From Bacillota bacterium (GTDB lineage Bacteria > Bacillota > UBA4882 > UBA10575): DNA of 62,200 nt. This document shows, in pieces, positions 29,556 to 52,244 of the stretch (its first letter is position 1; every line of letters begins with the position of its first letter). The notes beneath the pieces were generated by a model. The model did not search any database. It was not told where the DNA came from and saw nothing but the letters and a program-made list of their open reading frames with translations. The stretch is from positions 1 to 62,200 of the forward strand of contig DUOH01000009.1 of assembly GCA_012838955.1 (NCBI GenBank), given 5' to 3'. The position numbers and the translations under genes are program-made.

Positions 29556-29760
29556 GGTATCACCCCCAATCTTTATACTCTTAATCTAACTTTAACAAAT
29601 GTGAAATCAAATGTCTAAGGCAAAAAAGCATCTCCGCAGATCAAAGAGCCGGTGATCGCCTGGGATTTCATTCAAGAAGCAGACGTAACAGACCGATATA
29701 TAATAATGGACAATTATCTGCCCTAACCTCTTGATAACATTTTTTGAAGGGGGCGTTTTG

Positions 29761-30855
29761 ATGGCTGAAAAAGAAGACCTGCATACTGCCAATTCCCTGG
29801 TCATTAAGATACTCTGGGCATCCCTAATCATCGCTGTCGGCGTCAGTCTGGGAAGCAAAGCGGAAGTGTTCAAGACGGCAACCATTGGTGGGTGCGGCGC
29901 CATTGTCTTCCTGATTCCCACCATCCTCTGGAAAAAAAGACTGCTTACTGAGTACATAAAATACTTCGTCACCATCGGCCTGGGGGCCTTCTCCTATGTA
30001 CTGCTGAACGCCATGGCCTACTCTTCAAACATCTTCGTCTTGTACGTCAGTATGATCATCATCTCAGTTTACCATGACTACAGACCAGTCATCCTCTCCG
30101 GCTTGATTGGTCTGGCGCAGATTAATTACTTCTATTACTTATTCCGAGACACTGTCTATCTCAATGAAAATCCCGTAATCATCAACGGCGCTCTGCTCGT
30201 CATCGCATTGGTGATCATACTTCAAATCAAAATCGGTGAAAGCATACGCCGGAATGAGCTGAAACGTGTTAAAGAGACTTTACTCCGGGTGGAATTGCTA
30301 CTGGTCAAAGCGGCCAAAAGCGCCGGACAGACAGAAGACATCTCCGGTGAAACGTCCGCAGAATCCTTGAGCACGAAAGGAAAAGAAGTACTAGAGGAGA
30401 CCAGTACGGTAATAAAGCAGATCACAGAGAGCTGTAGCCAGATTGCCGAAATGATCAAGGAAATCGATGACCTTGTCTTCCAAACAAATCTCTTGGCTTT
30501 AAACGCCTCTATTGAAGCTGCCCGGGCCGGTGAAGGGGGTAGAGGCTTTGCCATGGTCGCCAGGGAAGTACGGGACCTGGCGAACCGCGCCGCGGATTTA
30601 GTGAGAAAGTTGGCTAAACTAAACACCGGGTGCATAGAAGAGAGCGTAAAAGGAGATGCCCTGCTACAAAAGACCGCCGGGATGTTTCAGGAGATTATGG
30701 AGAATAACAAAAACACCCCCCATCTCCTCCTGGAAGTGGCAGCAGCCTTGCAGGAAGAGACCGGAGGGGTTGAAAAAACCCAGGCCGCTTTGGAACAACT
30801 TAGCCAAGCATCACAGAAAAATACGGCATTGATCAAAGAGATTATCCAGATCTAA
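29761..30855 (+). CDS. Membrane-bound methyl-accepting chemotaxis-type signalling protein
   Basis: 364 residues. The N-terminal ~165 residues contain about six hydrophobic segments with very short loops, unlike the usual two-helix receptor with a periplasmic sensor. The cytoplasmic half has the MCP hairpin tip [20 protein letters not shown] followed by [18 protein letters not shown]. The signalling domain is short and lacks obvious long adaptation helices. The start is ATG 29761 after GAAGGGGG rather than the earlier ATG at 29731. Probably senses a membrane-associated or energetic signal and feeds CheA/CheW. It lies alone between two leftward units; a bidirectional terminator follows. Confidence 0.85.
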
Positions 30856-44553: not shown

Positions 44554-45921
44554 TTACTTCATGATCCGCTTTAAAAGATTAAGTTTCTTCTTATAAGGGG
44601 CGTATCTTAGCCGAAGATCAAAGAGAAAGGTCTGCTTGAGGATGCTCTTGGCATGGGAGAAGGTGTCAAAGCCTTTTTTCCCGTGATAGGAACCGATCCC
44701 GCTGGCGCCCACCCCGCCGAAGGGCAGATGGTAATTGGCCACGTGCATAACGGTATCATTGATGCAGCCGCCGCCATACAACAGATTATGGATCACCCAG
44801 GTCTCAAGGTTTTTGTCCTTGGTGAACAAGTACAGCGCCAGCGGTTTCTCCCGGCTTCTAATGATCCGGACAGCCTCCTCCAAGTCATCATAGGCGATGA
44901 TCGGCAGGATCGGCCCGAAGATCTCCTCGGTCATCAGCTGGGAATCAAGGGCCGGATTATCCACTAGGGTGAGCTCAATCTTTAGTTGTTCCCGGTCGCA
45001 CGCCCCACCAGTAATAACCTTCTCCCTCTCTTCTTCGATCAGCCCTTGCAAGCGATCAAAGGCTTCGTCACGGATGATCTTGCCGAAATCCCCGGACTGA
45101 AGCGGATCCTCCCCGAAAAACTCTTTGATCGCCTGTTGCATGGCTTGGATTAACTCTTTCTTTACTGCACGGTGCACCAGGACATAATCCGGCGCCACAC
45201 AAGTCTGTCCGGCGTTTAAGGCTTTACCCCAAATGATGCGGCGGGCTGTTTTCTCCACATCCGCCGTGCGATCCACCACACAGGGACTCTTTCCGCCCAA
45301 CTCCAAGGTGACCGGGGTCAAGTGCTTGGCTGCCGCCTCCATGACGATCTTCCCCACCCGCACACTGCCGGTGAAGAAGATGTGGTCGAACCTGATATTC
45401 AGTAATGCAGTGTTGACTTCTTTACCGCCTTCAAACAAAGCAATATATTCCTTGGAAAAATGTGCCTTAATGAGGTTGGCTAAGAGGGTTGAAGTGTGCC
45501 TGGCGTAACGGGAGGGTTTTAGGACAACGCAGTTTCCGGCGGCGATGGCCGCGACCAACGGCGTCATGTTCAACTGAAAAGGGTAGTTCCAAGGCGCCAT
45601 GATCAGTACTACACCCAAGGGTTGCCGGTGGATATAGGATTTGGCACCGAAACTCTGTACCGGAGTCGGCGCGCTTTGCTCTTTCATCCAGCCCTTAAGG
45701 TGCTTGAGGGTGTGTTTGATCTCCGCATAAACCAAGGATACTTCCGTGGCATAACTTTCAAACGGGCTTTTCCCCAGATCCCGCTGTAAGGCCTGGAAGA
45801 TCAGATCTTCGTTCTTTTTGATCGCGCCATATAGCGTCTTAAGTTGTTTGACCCGAAAAGCATAAGGCAGAGTAGCCCCGGATTGAAAGAACTTCCTTTG
45901 CTCCTCCACAGTTTTGAGCAT
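44554..45921 (-). CDS. Aldehyde dehydrogenase (class 3-like)
   Basis: 455 residues. Catalytic Cys in NAGQTCVAPDYVLV, general base Glu in VTLELGGKSPCVV, NAD loop FTGSVRVGKIVMEAA, and PWNYPFQLNMTPLVAAIAAG. The C-terminal FDTFSHAKSILKQTFLFDLR with a hydrophobic/basic tail is typical of class 3/fatty aldehyde enzymes. Oxidises medium-chain or aromatic aldehydes to acids with NAD(P). ATG 45921 follows GGGGGGAAAC. Downstream of the two-domain aldolase on the same strand; the YjbQ remnant abuts its stop. Confidence 0.93.
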   Translation of the reverse strand: MLKTVEEQRKFFQSGATLPYAFRVKQLKTLYGAIKKNEDLIFQALQRDLGKSPFESYATEVSLVYAEIKHTLKHLKGWMKEQSAPTPVQSFGAKSYIHRQPLGVVLIMAPWNYPFQLNMTPLVAAIAAGNCVVLKPSRYARHTSTLLANLIKAHFSKEYIALFEGGKEVNTALLNIRFDHIFFTGSVRVGKIVMEAAAKHLTPVTLELGGKSPCVVDRTADVEKTARRIIWGKALNAGQTCVAPDYVLVHRAVKKELIQAMQQAIKEFFGEDPLQSGDFGKIIRDEAFDRLQGLIEEEREKVITGGACDREQLKIELTLVDNPALDSQLMTEEIFGPILPIIAYDDLEEAVRIIRSREKPLALYLFTKDKNLETWVIHNLLYGGGCINDTVMHVANYHLPFGGVGASGIGSYHGKKGFDTFSHAKSILKQTFLFDLRLRYAPYKKKLNLLKRIMK

Positions 45922-46012
45922 AGTTTCCCCCCCATCACTCCTGAGTTTGGGTTCCCGCCCGGCTCACCCGGCCCGCTGGTGTTCGCCCAGGCGGCTTCCA
46001 GGTTATTCTCTG

Positions 46013-47218
46013 TTATTTGTCCGCGCTCATAACCAACGCCTGCTTGGCGTATTTCTTAAGATAAAAATAGCGCATGAGCATACTCTCCACCGGATTAATG
46101 GGCTTGACTCGACCGAATAAGGAAGCGCCAATCCAGGCTTTGGCTGCTTTGTGCAGGATCGCCCCGGCCGCGCGGGCGTCATCCTCATTTGCACCGCAAC
46201 ATAAGGCGCCGGTATTCTTGATCAGCACAGCGGAGGATCTACCTAACGCTCGGGCGACCCGATCCGGATCATCCCGCTCAACCGTTCTGACCCGCAGTCC
46301 GATGATCTGCGCAAAATCATCCAGCAGAGGTTTTAAACTGCAACCAGCCGTAGAAAGGCTGAGAATCTCCGGGGTCGCTTGGAAGATAATCGCCTTAATC
46401 CACTGATTCTTCTGGTAGATGGCACGATAGAGCCCAACCTCCTCCGGCCAGCCAGCCAAAATTTGTTCATCCGGAATCTCCACTTCTCTCTCGCCGTCAA
46501 ACCAGATAAAACCATTCCCTCTTCTGAAGCTGGCGCCATAAGCCCTTTTTTCCGGCGTCACCAGAGACAGCAGAGTTTCCCGGTCTTGCCCGAGAACAAA
46601 GGCGCTCATGGCATAAGGATCATACTTCCTTTCTCCGCTCAGCTTTAAGTAACGGTTGATCACAAAAACCCTACAGGCTTCTTCCAGTTCGGAAGCGACC
46701 GTAAACGCCTCTTCCGCGTTTGCACCGAAACAAAGGGCACCGTGGTGTCTCATGATTACTGCTTTACCAGTGGACTTTTCCAGCGCTTGGCGGACTTTTT
46801 TCTGCAACGCTTCCGTCCCGGGCAGCGCATAATCAGCACACAGGACCGTTTCCCCCAGCGTGGGGTATTTACTATCAACCTGAATCTCCTTCAATCTGGT
46901 CGCCGCGATCACTGAGGCGTTATCCTGATGGGTGTGGATGACGAAATTTACTTCAGGATGAAGTTTATAGACTTCGGCATGAACCCCCTTTTCAGATGAG
47001 GGTTTAATCTCCCCTTGGAAGCTCAAGTCATCGATCTTGACCAGGACCAGATCAGCCGCAGTCAAAGAGAGATAACTCCGGCCGCTGGGCGTGATGACAA
47101 AACTCTCCCCATCTACCCGGCAACTGACATTCCCCCACGTGCGCGCAGTTAAACCTGATTCCAGCAGTTTGATCCCGGCTTTGAGCACCGCATTCTTCGC
47201 ATCGTTAATATCTATCAC
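46013..47218 (-). CDS. Class II aldolase/adducin protein with a second, degenerate aldolase domain
   Basis: 401 residues. Domain 1 (~1-215) is a complete class II aldolase: GLTARTWGNVSCRVDGESFV (phosphate loop), the Glu of SSEKGVHAEVY, zinc ligands VIHTHQDNASV and MRHHGALCFGA. Domain 2 (~245-400) repeats the fold, but FQATPEI replaces the HTH segment and KNTGALCCGA replaces HHGALCFG, so the metal site is lost. Likely an L-fuculose/L-rhamnulose-type phosphate aldolase with a regulatory or structural second half. I chose GTG 47218, five bases after AAGGCGG; the frame upstream to 47407 crosses unrelated remnants. Aldolase plus aldehyde dehydrogenase suggests lactaldehyde oxidation in deoxy-sugar use. 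Confidence 0.82.
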   Translation of the reverse strand: MIDINDAKNAVLKAGIKLLESGLTARTWGNVSCRVDGESFVITPSGRSYLSLTAADLVLVKIDDLSFQGEIKPSSEKGVHAEVYKLHPEVNFVIHTHQDNASVIAATRLKEIQVDSKYPTLGETVLCADYALPGTEALQKKVRQALEKSTGKAVIMRHHGALCFGANAEEAFTVASELEEACRVFVINRYLKLSGERKYDPYAMSAFVLGQDRETLLSLVTPEKRAYGASFRRGNGFIWFDGEREVEIPDEQILAGWPEEVGLYRAIYQKNQWIKAIIFQATPEILSLSTAGCSLKPLLDDFAQIIGLRVRTVERDDPDRVARALGRSSAVLIKNTGALCCGANEDDARAAGAILHKAAKAWIGASLFGRVKPINPVESMLMRYFYLKKYAKQALVMSADK

Positions 47219-47344
47219 AACCACCGCCTTACGCTTTGATCGCCACATTTTGGAAGACATTTTCGAACCGGACGCGAATATCGGAGAGCATGTGGCCTTC
47301 ATAAGCCGCGCTAGTATAAATCCTGCTACCAGTTCTCCTATACC

Positions 47345-47462
47345 TGCAAGTATTATAAAGAGCGACTGAAACTCTTTATTGACGACAATGTCTTTACCAA
47401 AGATCAACGCCTGGTGGAAGAAGTGATGAAGTTCATTAAGGGAACTTTATATTTAAGTTCGT
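47345..47462 (+). pseudogene. Rightward 3' gene remnant, family unknown
   Basis: A plus-strand frame with coding-like composition reads YYKERLKLFIDDNVFTKDQ and RLVEEVMKFIKGTLYLSS to a TAA at 47460. It has no start and is preceded by a TAG near 47310. Looks like the last ~40 codons of a lost gene. Confidence 0.35.
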
Positions 47463-47966: not shown

Positions 47967-49913
47967 TCAGTCCTGATCCCCGGTATAGTCATGTACAATC
48001 TGAGTAGCGCTGGCCACCATCTCTTCACCCTGAGCAGTAAACTCTTGGATAATGGCTGAAATATTCATGATCGCCATATTAACAGCGTCCATCTTCTGAT
48101 CAACCGTATTGGAGATCTCAAGCACCTTGACGACCAGATCCTGAATGGCCTCTTCATTCCCTAGAGCCTCTTCCGCTGTTCTCTGAGACTCCTCAGCCAG
48201 TCTTTTGATTTCTTGAGCCAAGACATTAAATCCTTTACCGTGTTCACCACTTCTGGCCGCTTCGATCCCGGCATTCAAAGAAAGAATTCTCGTCTGACGC
48301 GCCACCCCAAGAATATCAGAAGTGGCTTCAGTAAACCGGCCTACATTGTCATTGATCTCAGCAATCAGCTTCCGAAGTATTTCAGTGTACTCAGCCACCT
48401 CGCTCACATCACGGCCGATCATTTCAATCTCTTGCCCTGCCTGTTCATTCCCGTGGTACACGTCCTCCATGGAGACAGTAATCTCCTGAATACGCTTGGT
48501 TAGCTCAGCCGCACGTTCCTGGCGTTCTTGGCTGAGGGCGGTCACTTCCTCCAACATCCTGTTGATCTCGTTATTCTTCTCCTCGAGCATTTTATTCTCC
48601 CGAATGACTTCTTTTCGGTTATAATCAATACAATTCGCCGGCCGGTCCAATTTATTAAAGATTGCTCTGACCATATCACGACAGGTCTGATAACCGCAAG
48701 CAGTACAATTAAGATTTTGGGCCTCAGGCGTATCCTTATGCAGGCTCAAGAAAATCTCGGCATACTCTTCCCTGGTCGGCTCCTTTAAGGAGTGTATGTC
48801 AGCTCTCTTATAACTGCGATAAAAGTCATCCAGTTTCAACTTTTTATTGAAGATCTTAAACAACTTTTCAGAGCGGCTCTTCAATTTTTTACCGCTTTTA
48901 TCTCCTGACTTTTCTTTGGCAAACGCCTGCATAGCCAGGTCAATATCGTCAATGTCACCCTCCTGGCAAGCCCCGGTCCCTTTATTACAACCATATGGAC
49001 AGTTCAAAATATCTACCAGAGTAGGAAGGTTTTTTCCTCTGTCCAGCCGTCGTCTGTATTCTTGCAAATAAAGATAGGCTACATCCTGCCCTTCCACTTG
49101 CCGAACCCAGACGTTCCCCGCAATCGCCTCCACATTCTCTCTGAGGCCTCCCGGCCGTGGAAATACAGATCCCAACCCGCAACCCGGGTCGTCAAATTCG
49201 CCTTCCGGATACTCATGTATATTTATACCGTGAGTTGCGATATAATCCATGAATTTTTTGAAGGTGACATTATATTCAACCACATTTCCGGTGTTGGCGT
49301 CTACGATCTCATCATTCTTCGCGATACAAGGGGAAAGAAAGGCTATTTTGTCACGGTATCCATTATATTTACGTAAATAAATGGCTGTACACATCATCGG
49401 ACTATGCACTGGCGCCAAATAATCAAGCAACCCGGGTTGGTGTTTCTCCACATAGTTGACGATGGCCGGACAAGGCTGGGCAATCATTGAACTTACCCCT
49501 GTCTCCGCCAAAACTTTTAAATACGCCCAAACCGTAATATCCGCTCCAAACGAAACATCATAGACCAAAGGCGCCCCTAATTTCTTCAAATACCCGATCA
49601 CTCGTTTATACTCGGGAAAGTTTGTCCGCACCGATGGGGCCACCAATACGGAGATCCGCTGTCCTTCCTGAAGATCCTGGAAGAACCGTTCCGTATCATC
49701 CCTGTAATCCCTGGCGTCATGGTCACAAACTTCGATACACTTCCCACAATGAATACATATCTCCGGATTCACCCTGACTTTGGTCTCACCGTTGATTGTG
49801 TAGGAAATATTAGCGCCGAGCACCGGACAATTTCTGATACATTTGTTACATCCCTGACACTTCTCCTCGATAATGAATATAGTCTCTTCTACAAAACTGT
49901 TATTATTCATCAT
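47967..49913 (-). CDS. Sensory [FeFe]-hydrogenase-like protein fused to an MCP signalling domain
   Basis: 648 residues, no membrane segment. Two [4Fe-4S] ferredoxin motifs (Cys19/22/25/29 and Cys53/56/59/63). An H-cluster domain (~75-320) retains all four cluster cysteines: Cys147 in AQPCPA, Cys195 in LSPCIAKND, Cys304 and Cys308 in NCPYGCNKG. Several catalytic neighbours differ from TSCCP and PCxxKKxE of real hydrogenases. A further 4Fe-4S domain follows (Cys402/405/410/427, NCTACGYQTC). Then a coiled coil and an MCP signalling hairpin (LSLNAGIEAARSGEHGKGFN, ~545-580). Predicted cytosolic H2 or redox sensor feeding the chemotaxis machinery. Start ATG 49913 or 49910 after GAGGAGAAG. Monocistronic. 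Confidence 0.92.
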   Translation of the reverse strand: MMNNNSFVEETIFIIEEKCQGCNKCIRNCPVLGANISYTINGETKVRVNPEICIHCGKCIEVCDHDARDYRDDTERFFQDLQEGQRISVLVAPSVRTNFPEYKRVIGYLKKLGAPLVYDVSFGADITVWAYLKVLAETGVSSMIAQPCPAIVNYVEKHQPGLLDYLAPVHSPMMCTAIYLRKYNGYRDKIAFLSPCIAKNDEIVDANTGNVVEYNVTFKKFMDYIATHGINIHEYPEGEFDDPGCGLGSVFPRPGGLRENVEAIAGNVWVRQVEGQDVAYLYLQEYRRRLDRGKNLPTLVDILNCPYGCNKGTGACQEGDIDDIDLAMQAFAKEKSGDKSGKKLKSRSEKLFKIFNKKLKLDDFYRSYKRADIHSLKEPTREEYAEIFLSLHKDTPEAQNLNCTACGYQTCRDMVRAIFNKLDRPANCIDYNRKEVIRENKMLEEKNNEINRMLEEVTALSQERQERAAELTKRIQEITVSMEDVYHGNEQAGQEIEMIGRDVSEVAEYTEILRKLIAEINDNVGRFTEATSDILGVARQTRILSLNAGIEAARSGEHGKGFNVLAQEIKRLAEESQRTAEEALGNEEAIQDLVVKVLEISNTVDQKMDAVNMAIMNISAIIQEFTAQGEEMVASATQIVHDYTGDQD

Positions 49914-50310
49914 TACTTCTCCTCCTACCGCAATGTCGAAAAATCGCGGATACGTATTCGTTTCGAGCCACTCTTACGAGTATTCCTTCATTCCACTGGA
50001 TTTACCTGAACACTAGATCTGGGCTTACCGAAAAACTCAAGTTGAAATAGGAAGAAAGGTTTTGGCCACAGAAGAGGCGAGTTAGGAGAGGAAATCTCCA
50101 AAGGAAAGTTATCGCTCGGTTTTTCGTTTCATACCAGTCACCTCAAGGGCAAGAATTATATAGAATAGTTCTCCATATTCAGGCATTTTTCCTGTCTAAA
50201 ATGGTTTTTTCCTTTTTTTTTGGGATTTTTAGACTTTTCCATGAAACAATCGTCAAGCTTAGCGCAATTTCAACAGTAAGTGCCGATAAAAAACAAGCAT
50301 AATAAGTGAT
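49914..50310. other. Promoter region of the H2-sensor gene; otherwise no gene seen
   Basis: The minus strand has TATAAT at 50161-50156 with CTGAAT 16 bases upstream, a plausible promoter for the sensor gene ~240 bases away. The long leader between is not recognisable as a riboswitch. A T-rich/A-rich stretch sits near 50200. Confidence 0.45.
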
Positions 50311-50333
50311 AAAAAAACTGTCCGCCAGGACAG
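50311..50333 (-). terminator. Rho-independent terminator of the sensor-kinase/ATL operon
   Basis: CTGTCC-GCCA-GGACAG (50318-50333) with seven T following on the minus strand (50317-50311). Confidence 0.92.
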
Positions 50334-50340
50334 CTTGTAA

Positions 50341-50655
50341 TCACCGATATCTACCACTTTCGGATCCCATAGGTGCTTTTTCAGATCAATACATCCGTCT
50401 GCTTTGAAGGTGACCCCTTCGCTCTCGAGCAATTTTCGTTGTTCCTCCTGGTGGCAAAGAACCGCCGGACACATGCTTCCCACCTTGTTGACCACCTGGT
50501 GCCAGGGAAGGTCCAGCTCAACCGGGGCGCTATGCATCGCCCACCCGACCACCCGGGCGTTCCGCGGTTGCCCAAGAAGCGCGCGATCTGGCCGTAGGTA
50601 GCCACCTTTCCCCTGGGGATTTGGGCGACAATCGTATAGACCTCAATATAATCAC
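50341..50655 (-). pseudogene. Alkyltransferase-like (ATL) DNA-repair protein, apparent frameshifts
   Basis: Pieces in two frames make one ATL protein: VYTIVAQIPRGKVATYGQIA then VVGWAMHSAPVELDLPWHQV and CHQEEQRKLLESEGV. The active-site motif is PWHQ, with Trp in place of the acceptor Cys of O6-alkylguanine methyltransferase; that is the ATL hallmark (binds alkylated guanine and recruits excision repair, no transfer). One extra T at ~50645 links a GTG (50655, overlapping the regulator's stop as GTGA) to the frame. One extra C near 50565 gives GNPRNARVVGW. One extra C near 50365 gives WDPESGRYR-stop just before the terminator. The corrected protein is 105 residues, normal for ATL. All three are homopolymer changes, so sequencing error is the simplest explanation. 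Confidence 0.78.
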
Positions 50656-52244
50656 TTAGTATTCTCCCGGTATTCGCTGGGTGACATCCCCGACATCTTT
50701 TTAAAGCAATTACTGAAATAATATGAGTCCTTATACCCGACGGCATTGGAAACCTCATAAATTTTCAGGTCGGTATGTTTCAGCAACTCTTTGGCTTTCT
50801 TGATCCGGCGTTCGGTGAGATAATCAATGAAATTCTTACCGGTCTGTTCCGTAAATAATAGACTGAGATAGCTGGGGCTGATATTATAATGATGGGCCAT
50901 GGCGGAGAGGGTAATATCAGCGGCGAAATTTTCATCCAGATACCGCCGGATCTCCTCCACCAGTTGATGATTGAGTGAAGCGCGTTTTTGGCGGATATGA
51001 TTATTAATCCGGTTAAAAAATGAATTCAAAAGCCCCTTTAAATCCTCTAAGCTTTCTACCTGATTCAGGTCGACCAGGGTAGTGTCATTGGCGCCAAATA
51101 TTTCTCCGGCGTTATACCCCAGTTCATTCAGGCTGGCAAGGGTTAATAGAATTAAATTACTGGCCACCATCTTTGCTAATTCGGGATTTAGCTTGGCCAG
51201 GCGTATCTCATTAATGATCCTGTTCAAATCCTCATCGATGGCTGAGGCCGCCCCGATTTTTATATTGTCGAAAATCGGATGCCGGTGAAGGGCATTGAGG
51301 ATTTTATGGTAGGATTGATTATCCGGATTAAGATCATTAATAAAGAAGACCTGATTCATTCCGTATAAATAACGATATTGCAACGCGGAACATGCCTCTC
51401 GGTAGGAAACGGCCAGGTCCGCCAAGTCCCAGTATGAACGCCCCAATCCGCAGGCGACTGAAAGCTTTAATGTCAAATGCGTCTGGGATAAAATCTCCTC
51501 TAGGCGCAGGGGTAAATTTCGATCCGGTTCAATGAAGATTAATACTACTTGGTTGCGATGGTGGTTGACCACAAAACTTCGATGGACGTTGGCTTCAGCC
51601 AACCGTTGTACCTGTTGATATAGTCGCAAACTGAGGAGATACTTTTCTTCTTCATTCATCTCTGATAATTGGTTCTCAGGAAGCTCGATCACGGCCACTT
51701 GAAAGGCACGGTTATTAAGCCCGCTGATCCCCAAAAAATCCAACTGGGCGTCAATATTGGCGACCACATTACCGTTCAACAGATCTAACAAGAGTTTTTC
51801 AACCAAAGCGGTCTTGTTCTTTCTTAACTGGTCCCGTAGATCATTTATCTCTGACCGCTCCGCTTCTTCCTTTTCGAGCTCCTCCCTGAAACGCAGCACC
51901 ACCTCGAGCAGCCTTTTACTGGCGAAAGGTTTAAGCAAATAATCGGAGACGTTTAATTTGATCGATTCTTGCGCATACTCAAACTCGGCATAGCCGGAGA
52001 TCACAATGATCTTCATCTGGTAGCCGCGGCGTTTGATCTCTTTAATCAGTTCGATCCCGTTCATCTTCGGCATCTGCACATCAGTCACCATAATCTTAAC
52101 GGGATGCTTCTCCAAGAGGGCCAGCGCCTCAAGTCCGTTGGACGCCCCTAAAACCGGTTCAAAGCCATATTCGGCCCATGCCACGTTGTTCATGAGTTTC
52201 TCTTTGATCGCCTCTTCATCTTCGACCAGTAAAAGTCCGAACAC
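50652..52244 (-). CDS. Response regulator, REC + AraC type (YesN-like)
   Basis: 530 residues. Receiver domain 1-~120 with phospho-acceptor Asp55 in VTDVQMPKMNGIEL and Lys in YLLKPFASKRLLEV. A variable linker/sensor region (~140-420) follows. C-terminal AraC double HTH (~430-530): SAMAHHYNISPSYLSLLFTE, then EVSNAVGYKDSYYFSNCFKK and MSPSEYRE. Partner of the kinase encoded just upstream (18-base gap). The GTG start follows GGTGAAGGAGA. Likely activates sugar uptake or catabolic genes. The last codons overlap the ATL gene. Confidence 0.92.
   Translation of the reverse strand: MFGLLLVEDEEAIKEKLMNNVAWAEYGFEPVLGASNGLEALALLEKHPVKIMVTDVQMPKMNGIELIKEIKRRGYQMKIIVISGYAEFEYAQESIKLNVSDYLLKPFASKRLLEVVLRFREELEKEEAERSEINDLRDQLRKNKTALVEKLLLDLLNGNVVANIDAQLDFLGISGLNNRAFQVAVIELPENQLSEMNEEEKYLLSLRLYQQVQRLAEANVHRSFVVNHHRNQVVLIFIEPDRNLPLRLEEILSQTHLTLKLSVACGLGRSYWDLADLAVSYREACSALQYRYLYGMNQVFFINDLNPDNQSYHKILNALHRHPIFDNIKIGAASAIDEDLNRIINEIRLAKLNPELAKMVASNLILLTLASLNELGYNAGEIFGANDTTLVDLNQVESLEDLKGLLNSFFNRINNHIRQKRASLNHQLVEEIRRYLDENFAADITLSAMAHHYNISPSYLSLLFTEQTGKNFIDYLTERRIKKAKELLKHTDLKIYEVSNAVGYKDSYYFSNCFKKMSGMSPSEYRENTK

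Follow-up and report, generated by a model that had tools for sequence, protein, structure and literature searches.

The window analysed here, a 62,200-nucleotide stretch of a Bacillota bacterium genome, carries on its minus strand an intact open reading frame for a 648 aa protein, in which an [FeFe]-hydrogenase-type sensor is fused to a methyl-accepting chemotaxis protein (MCP) (Table 1). Pfam searches matched Fe_hyd_lg_C at residues 85-311 (E 6e-33), MCPsignal (PF00015) at residues 516-638 (E 2.5e-20, 73.5 bits against a cut-off of 34.6), Fer4_10 at residues 11-62 (E 1.8e-9) and the FeS family PF04060 at residues 399-428 (E 2e-6). Since all four matches exceed their gathering cut-offs, this architecture is far beyond chance. 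No Pfam match to a PAS domain was obtained for the protein.

Table 1. Features of the fusion gene (positions in the window; residues numbered from the first Met)
Feature	Position	Strand	Basis
Whole gene	47967..49913	-	ORF and Pfam; same fusion in 59 relatives
Shine-Dalgarno sequence AGGAGGA	49920..49926	-	Sequence; 6 nt 5' of the ATG at 49913
Residues 11-66, two [4Fe-4S] ferredoxin motifs, C19/22/25/29 and C53/56/59/63	49716..49883	-	Pfam Fer4_10/Fer4_7
Residues 85-311, H-cluster domain	48981..49661	-	Pfam, conservation, fold
Residues 403-428, C-terminal cluster motif Cx2Cx4Cx16C (PF04060)	48630..48707	-	Pfam, conservation, helix start
Residues 429-465, helical linker from C-terminal cluster to hairpin	48519..48629	-	AlphaFold2 model
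Residues 466-647, MCP signalling hairpin, about 13 heptads past the tip	47973..48518	-	Pfam MCPsignal, model, arm lengths
Residues 540-576, hairpin tip QTRILSLNAGIEAARSGEHGKGFNVLAQEIKRLAEES, CheA/CheW contact region by homology	48186..48296	-	Column conservation

In the AlphaFold2 model of the protein (mean pLDDT 86), two long helices, 429-554 and 556-647, come after a hydrogenase fold, and the turn between them lies at the MCP tip. Solved [FeFe] hydrogenases match the modelled fold with Z of about 26-33; the match to CbA5H (Z 32.9, 350 residues at 2.8 A) marks it confidently as an [FeFe]-hydrogenase fold. An earlier note, made from the sequence of the window, had described a soluble receptor without a membrane sensor and with an MCP hairpin as C-terminal output, and both points agree with these data: the protein has no hydrophobic segment, and the MCPsignal match falls within the two long helices.

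Residues N547, E551, R554, G556 and F562 correspond to CheA- and CheW-contacting positions of known receptors. The tip columns are strongly conserved among MCP-fused sequences, with N547 found in 59/60, A548 and E551 in 60/60, R554 in 52/59, and G556 and F562 in 59/59, so that the protein combines the MCPsignal domain and the conserved hairpin tip by which a chemoreceptor is recognised. The hairpin extends for about 91 residues past the tip glutamate, while the other measurable MCPs of the same genome have 15 to 32 heptads past the tip, tails included. The best solved sequence match, PDB 3g6b, covers residues 455-617 (E 5e-12). In four Peptococcaceae-type relatives (L033, L035, L042 and L088) the hairpin is longer, with 127-128 residues past the tip, which reads EAAGAGE, not EAARAGE. 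The second, membrane-bound MCP reported in the earlier note is also real; it is encoded at 29731-30855 on the plus strand of the window (MCPsignal E 1.3e-30), has four hydrophobic segments ahead of its hairpin and reaches about 15 heptads past the tip.

The fusion gene stands alone, adjoining neither che nor hyd genes within the window. A search upstream of the gene for a sigma-28 promoter gave no convincing site, a result of little weight with so loose a search pattern; sigma-70-like matches in the region numbered 9, against 3.6 in shuffled sequences, and the minus-strand interval separating the start codon from the upstream gene contains none of them. An alkyltransferase-like gene (50259-50758, minus strand) contains the motif PWHQVVN, with Trp at the expected acceptor Cys, and appears to be split over two reading frames by a frameshift or a sequence error. 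Genes for class II aldolase and aldehyde dehydrogenase are found close to the receptor gene, downstream in the window (44557-47407) and upstream in one relative (L024:567-4946).

The H-cluster site and class of the H-domain

All four H-cluster cysteines are kept, as the earlier note had claimed, although its positions (147, 195, 304 and 308) are each one too low; the ligands are C148, C196, C305 and C309. They are invariant in the conservation set of 60 MCP-fused proteins (the window protein and 59 relatives), and with the fold they identify a PF02906 H-domain. Alignment with group A enzymes places P147, S194 and L303 at the CpI positions C299, M353 and M497. These substitutions are essentially fixed in the 60 sequences, where catalytic enzymes have C, M and M, the leucine being present in 60/60. 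The differences in flanking catalytic residues noted before are thus evident in the motifs AQPCP, SPC and LNC, replacing TSCCP, MPC and MAC. The equivalents of CpI K358 and E361, K199 and E202, are invariant in the same set, and the eight cysteines of the ferredoxin motifs are almost so.

Judged from these residues, the pocket of the window protein looks sensory, with some doubt left by L303, since TamHydS has both S353 and L497 as well as an H-cluster, and enters the Hred state with H2 (PMC8163306), but in CpI the M497L exchange yielded protein whose [2Fe] site was not properly integrated (PMC10055695). The C-terminal cysteines match exactly the Cx2Cx4Cx16C motif published for sensory groups (PMC8163306). 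The last cluster ligand, C428, directly precedes the long helix starting at residue 429 in the AlphaFold2 model, a position from which a change in the cluster could reach the coiled coil with no PAS domain in between.

To place the H-domain, a tree of 92 H-domains was combined with family models. Group A (100/100) and group B (100/98) form separate clades, and the window protein lies outside both, scoring 114 bits with TIGR02512 (cut-off 406) and 145 bits with TIGR04105 (cut-off 450); its P147, S194 and L303 further separate it from group A. It falls in a clade of 29 rows (100/96) containing MCP, GGDEF-EAL and kinase fusions, which bears out the resemblance to sensory hydrogenases proposed earlier, and group D-like proteins form another clade. 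The tree contained no Nar1 row, and the nearest solved structures to the H-domain are all [FeFe] hydrogenases. By the published definition of sensory groups C and D (PMC8163306) the protein belongs with these, having the C-terminal Cx2Cx4Cx16C cluster, no C299, and both M353 and M497 exchanged. It lies outside group C in the narrow sense (M2f), with no PAS match and with the helix beginning one residue past C428.

The window system is not of a new kind; it is probably a further member of the putative class, not mentioned in the earlier note, that HydDB (2016) names [FeFe] group C2, 'Chemotactic (putative)' (PMC5037454), in which a sensory-type H-domain is linked to a methyl-accepting chemotaxis protein and for which the same function was proposed. 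This membership rests on architecture and the class description. A later survey dropped its C2 matches at validation (PMC9431212), and the literature searched yielded no biochemical or other experimental study of any group C2 protein. Among characterised proteins, TamHydS (group D/M2e; PMC8163306, PMC13104023) shares two N-terminal clusters, S353, L497, the lack of C299, the Cx2Cx4Cx16C motif and the lack of PAS, but has no output domain past the C-terminal cluster, and the window protein has P at position 299. TmHydS (group C/M2f; PMC10055695) likewise has a sensory-type H-domain with a C-terminal cluster and has lost the catalytic C299; it differs in having a PAS domain and G353/S497, whereas in the window protein the MCP hairpin follows directly past the cluster. 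The soluble chemoreceptor hairpins PDB 3g67 and 3g6b, the latter being the closest solved hairpin sequence, are 213-residue entries of the hairpin alone, unlike the window hairpin, which is joined to a hydrogenase domain.

Chemotaxis and hydrogenase genes in the host genome and in relatives

The genome containing the window was searched by family and by region. It has two loci with CheA and CheW: a flagellar operon in which CheA, CheW, CheC and a CheD-like gene accompany flagellar genes including FlhA, and a second cluster, C36, outside that operon, with the order MCP-CheW-CheA-CheR-CheB. NCBIfam matches to CheB and FlhA exceed their cut-offs, while those to CheA and CheR are strong but below their own. 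HydF (571 bits) and HydG (502 bits), both over cut-off, are encoded close together on contig C40. The four Fe_hyd_lg_C proteins comprise two group A enzymes, the window protein and one PAS-containing sensory protein; both the chemotaxis partners and the catalytic hydrogenases that the earlier note had advised looking for are therefore present, and the lack of CheA and CheW that would have refuted its reading does not apply. The PAS sensory hydrogenase is encoded on contig C49 in one gene run with HydA-HydB-HydC-type genes and a SpoIIE-like phosphatase (L113:8283-15743), and resembles the phosphatase-linked class.

A scan of genome contigs recovered 79 loci, most with the MCP fusion. Among the relatives (called C2 genes below), one locus has C2-hydE-hydG-hydF in tandem on one strand (L059; NCBIfam 540, 873 and 469 bits for hydE, hydG and hydF, all over cut-off). 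In another genome (G041, locus L071) the C2 gene is divergent from, and beside, hydG-hydF-hydE and encodes the only Fe_hyd_lg_C protein found there. Elsewhere hydE is next to the C2 gene, past a terminator-like hairpin (L093), or hydF lies within about 8 kb (L031 and L034). By our estimate, assuming flanks of about 8 kb and genomes of about 2.5 Mb, fewer than one such hyd case would be expected by chance among 67 loci. On the chemotaxis side, a CheA gene follows immediately on the C2 gene in L033, in L116, where CheB and CheR are also present, and in L035, where CheW is. The last of these, an operon of Desulfocucumis (L035:8001-18008), comprises the C2 gene, a hybrid CheA, CheW, an MCP and a response regulator-GGDEF gene in a Wsp-like layout. 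In general, no widely recurring family was found in the C2 neighbourhood beyond other MCP and signalling genes and ABC transporters. The linkage to hydEGF and to cheA supports both the sensor half and the chemotaxis half of the 2016 guess.

CheW is present in 50/50 carrier genomes. Among 293 evenly sampled Clostridia with a completeness of at least 95%, the H-module cleanly set apart 16 carriers (above 400 bits, the next match being 237) from 277 non-carriers; CheW occurs in 16/16 of the former against 107/277 of the latter (Fisher p 5e-7, in a test that ignores shared ancestry). HydF showed no enrichment in this sample, occurring in 11/16 carriers and 187/277 non-carriers. Neither HydF nor HydG was found in 15 of the 50 carriers, but 10 of those 15 have a group A enzyme, so that many of these absences look like data gaps. 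Absence of HydF is unreliable in several carriers because their group A hydrogenases need it, as in G296, a single 3.26-Mb contig with group A hydrogenases despite the absence of a HydF or HydG match. An argument from such absences against an H-cluster was consequently rejected. Catalytic [FeFe] hydrogenases are also present in most carriers; the metagenome-assembled genome G026 has two C2 genes and no match to another [FeFe] protein or a maturase.

Proposed function, alternatives and exchange of output modules

The window gene likely encodes a cytoplasmic chemoreceptor in which an H2 sensor drives CheA, and by means of it the cell can probably steer by hydrogen. HydE, HydG and HydF would install the [2Fe] subcluster on the [4Fe-4S] cluster of the H-domain, forming a slow, sensor-tuned H-cluster that H2 would reduce or bind, and electrons or a conformational change might then reach the C-terminal [4Fe-4S] cluster (C403/406/411/428). 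With C428 predicted to cap a continuous helix running into the MCP hairpin, the redox or ligation state of this cluster may alter the coiled coil, and hence the activity of CheA at the tip, biasing the flagella. Since H2 crosses membranes freely, no membrane sensor would be needed.

Several points count against an H2 sensor, namely the leucine at the M497 position, the lack of HydF enrichment, the genome G026 and the absence of a che or hyd neighbour in the window. The leucine, in view of CpI M497L, HydF not being enriched with C2, and two C2 genes with no maturase found in G026, together with the eight retained ferredoxin cysteines, would fit a redox receptor for energy taxis, whose H-domain binds only [4Fe-4S] without [2Fe] and reports the state of the ferredoxin pool to CheA. 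We regard this as unlikely in view of the tandem C2-hydE-hydG-hydF genes, the C2 gene beside hydG-hydF-hydE where no other [FeFe] protein was found, the activity of TamHydS with the same leucine and serine, and the invariance of the lysine contacting the [2Fe] ligands. The earlier note had left the signal as H2 or redox level; gene linkage in relatives supports H2 as the signal, as well as the coupling to CheA.

A true sensor might also have a non-swimming output in its own organism, if the chemosensory array acted on c-di-GMP or on some other function unrelated to flagella. The Wsp-like operon headed by the Desulfocucumis C2 gene, the fusion of close H-domains to GGDEF-EAL and the che cluster outside the flagellar operon speak for this reading, which nevertheless seems improbable for a genome whose flagellar operon includes CheA, CheW, CheC and a CheD-like gene, and given that most relatives are not in Wsp-like operons. 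H-clusters in general bind CO and react with O2, and the sequence is compatible with CO, O2 or a further H-cluster ligand being sensed in place of H2; as the sensory relatives TmHydS and TamHydS turn over H2 and catalytic [FeFe] hydrogenases also occur in most carriers, a different ligand is very improbable.

An archaeon is reported to show taxis towards H2 in work cited in PMC4266047, and our literature searches found no established H2 chemoreceptor; full-text searches on H2 taxis with hydrogenase and on GGDEF-linked sensory hydrogenases returned nothing. With C2 genes linked both to hydEGF and to cheA, the C2 proposal can be put directly to the test, and several named isolates have relatives (Roseburia faecis L045, Alkalithermobacter L025 and L026, Desulfocucumis L035). 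If an H2 chemoreceptor is indeed encoded, it would offer a way to follow or avoid H2 in H2-exchanging communities such as the rumen, the home of many carriers.

The MCP fusion requires at least four changes on the tree. A single origin was rejected (AU p 3.5e-5, with an MCP clade in 0% of bootstraps), and together these results indicate that the output module has been exchanged more than once. We lean towards regarding the H-domain as an exchangeable H2-sensor cassette, one close-knit lineage joined repeatedly to MCP, histidine kinase/receiver and GGDEF-EAL modules, and in some lineages placed at the head of a dedicated CheA pathway, which in one case has a Wsp-like diguanylate cyclase as output. 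If so, one and the same sensor would let H2 control swimming as well as c-di-GMP lifestyle switches. Neither the linkage evidence nor this output swapping was found described before in the literature searched.

GGDEF-EAL fusions of related H-domains were observed at L049:4735-7371, L057:7878-10628 and L101:7944-11414 (Desulfosporosinus, Treponema). In L134, L135 and L142, Pfam matches show that a sigma-54 AAA+ activator bearing a Fis/HTH domain is joined to a sensory H-domain and C-terminal cluster, by domain content an apparent one-protein H2-to-transcription switch. Both the GGDEF-EAL and the sigma-54 fusions are absent from HydDB classes C1-C3. L136 and L137 are placed with the sigma-54 fusions by length and tree.
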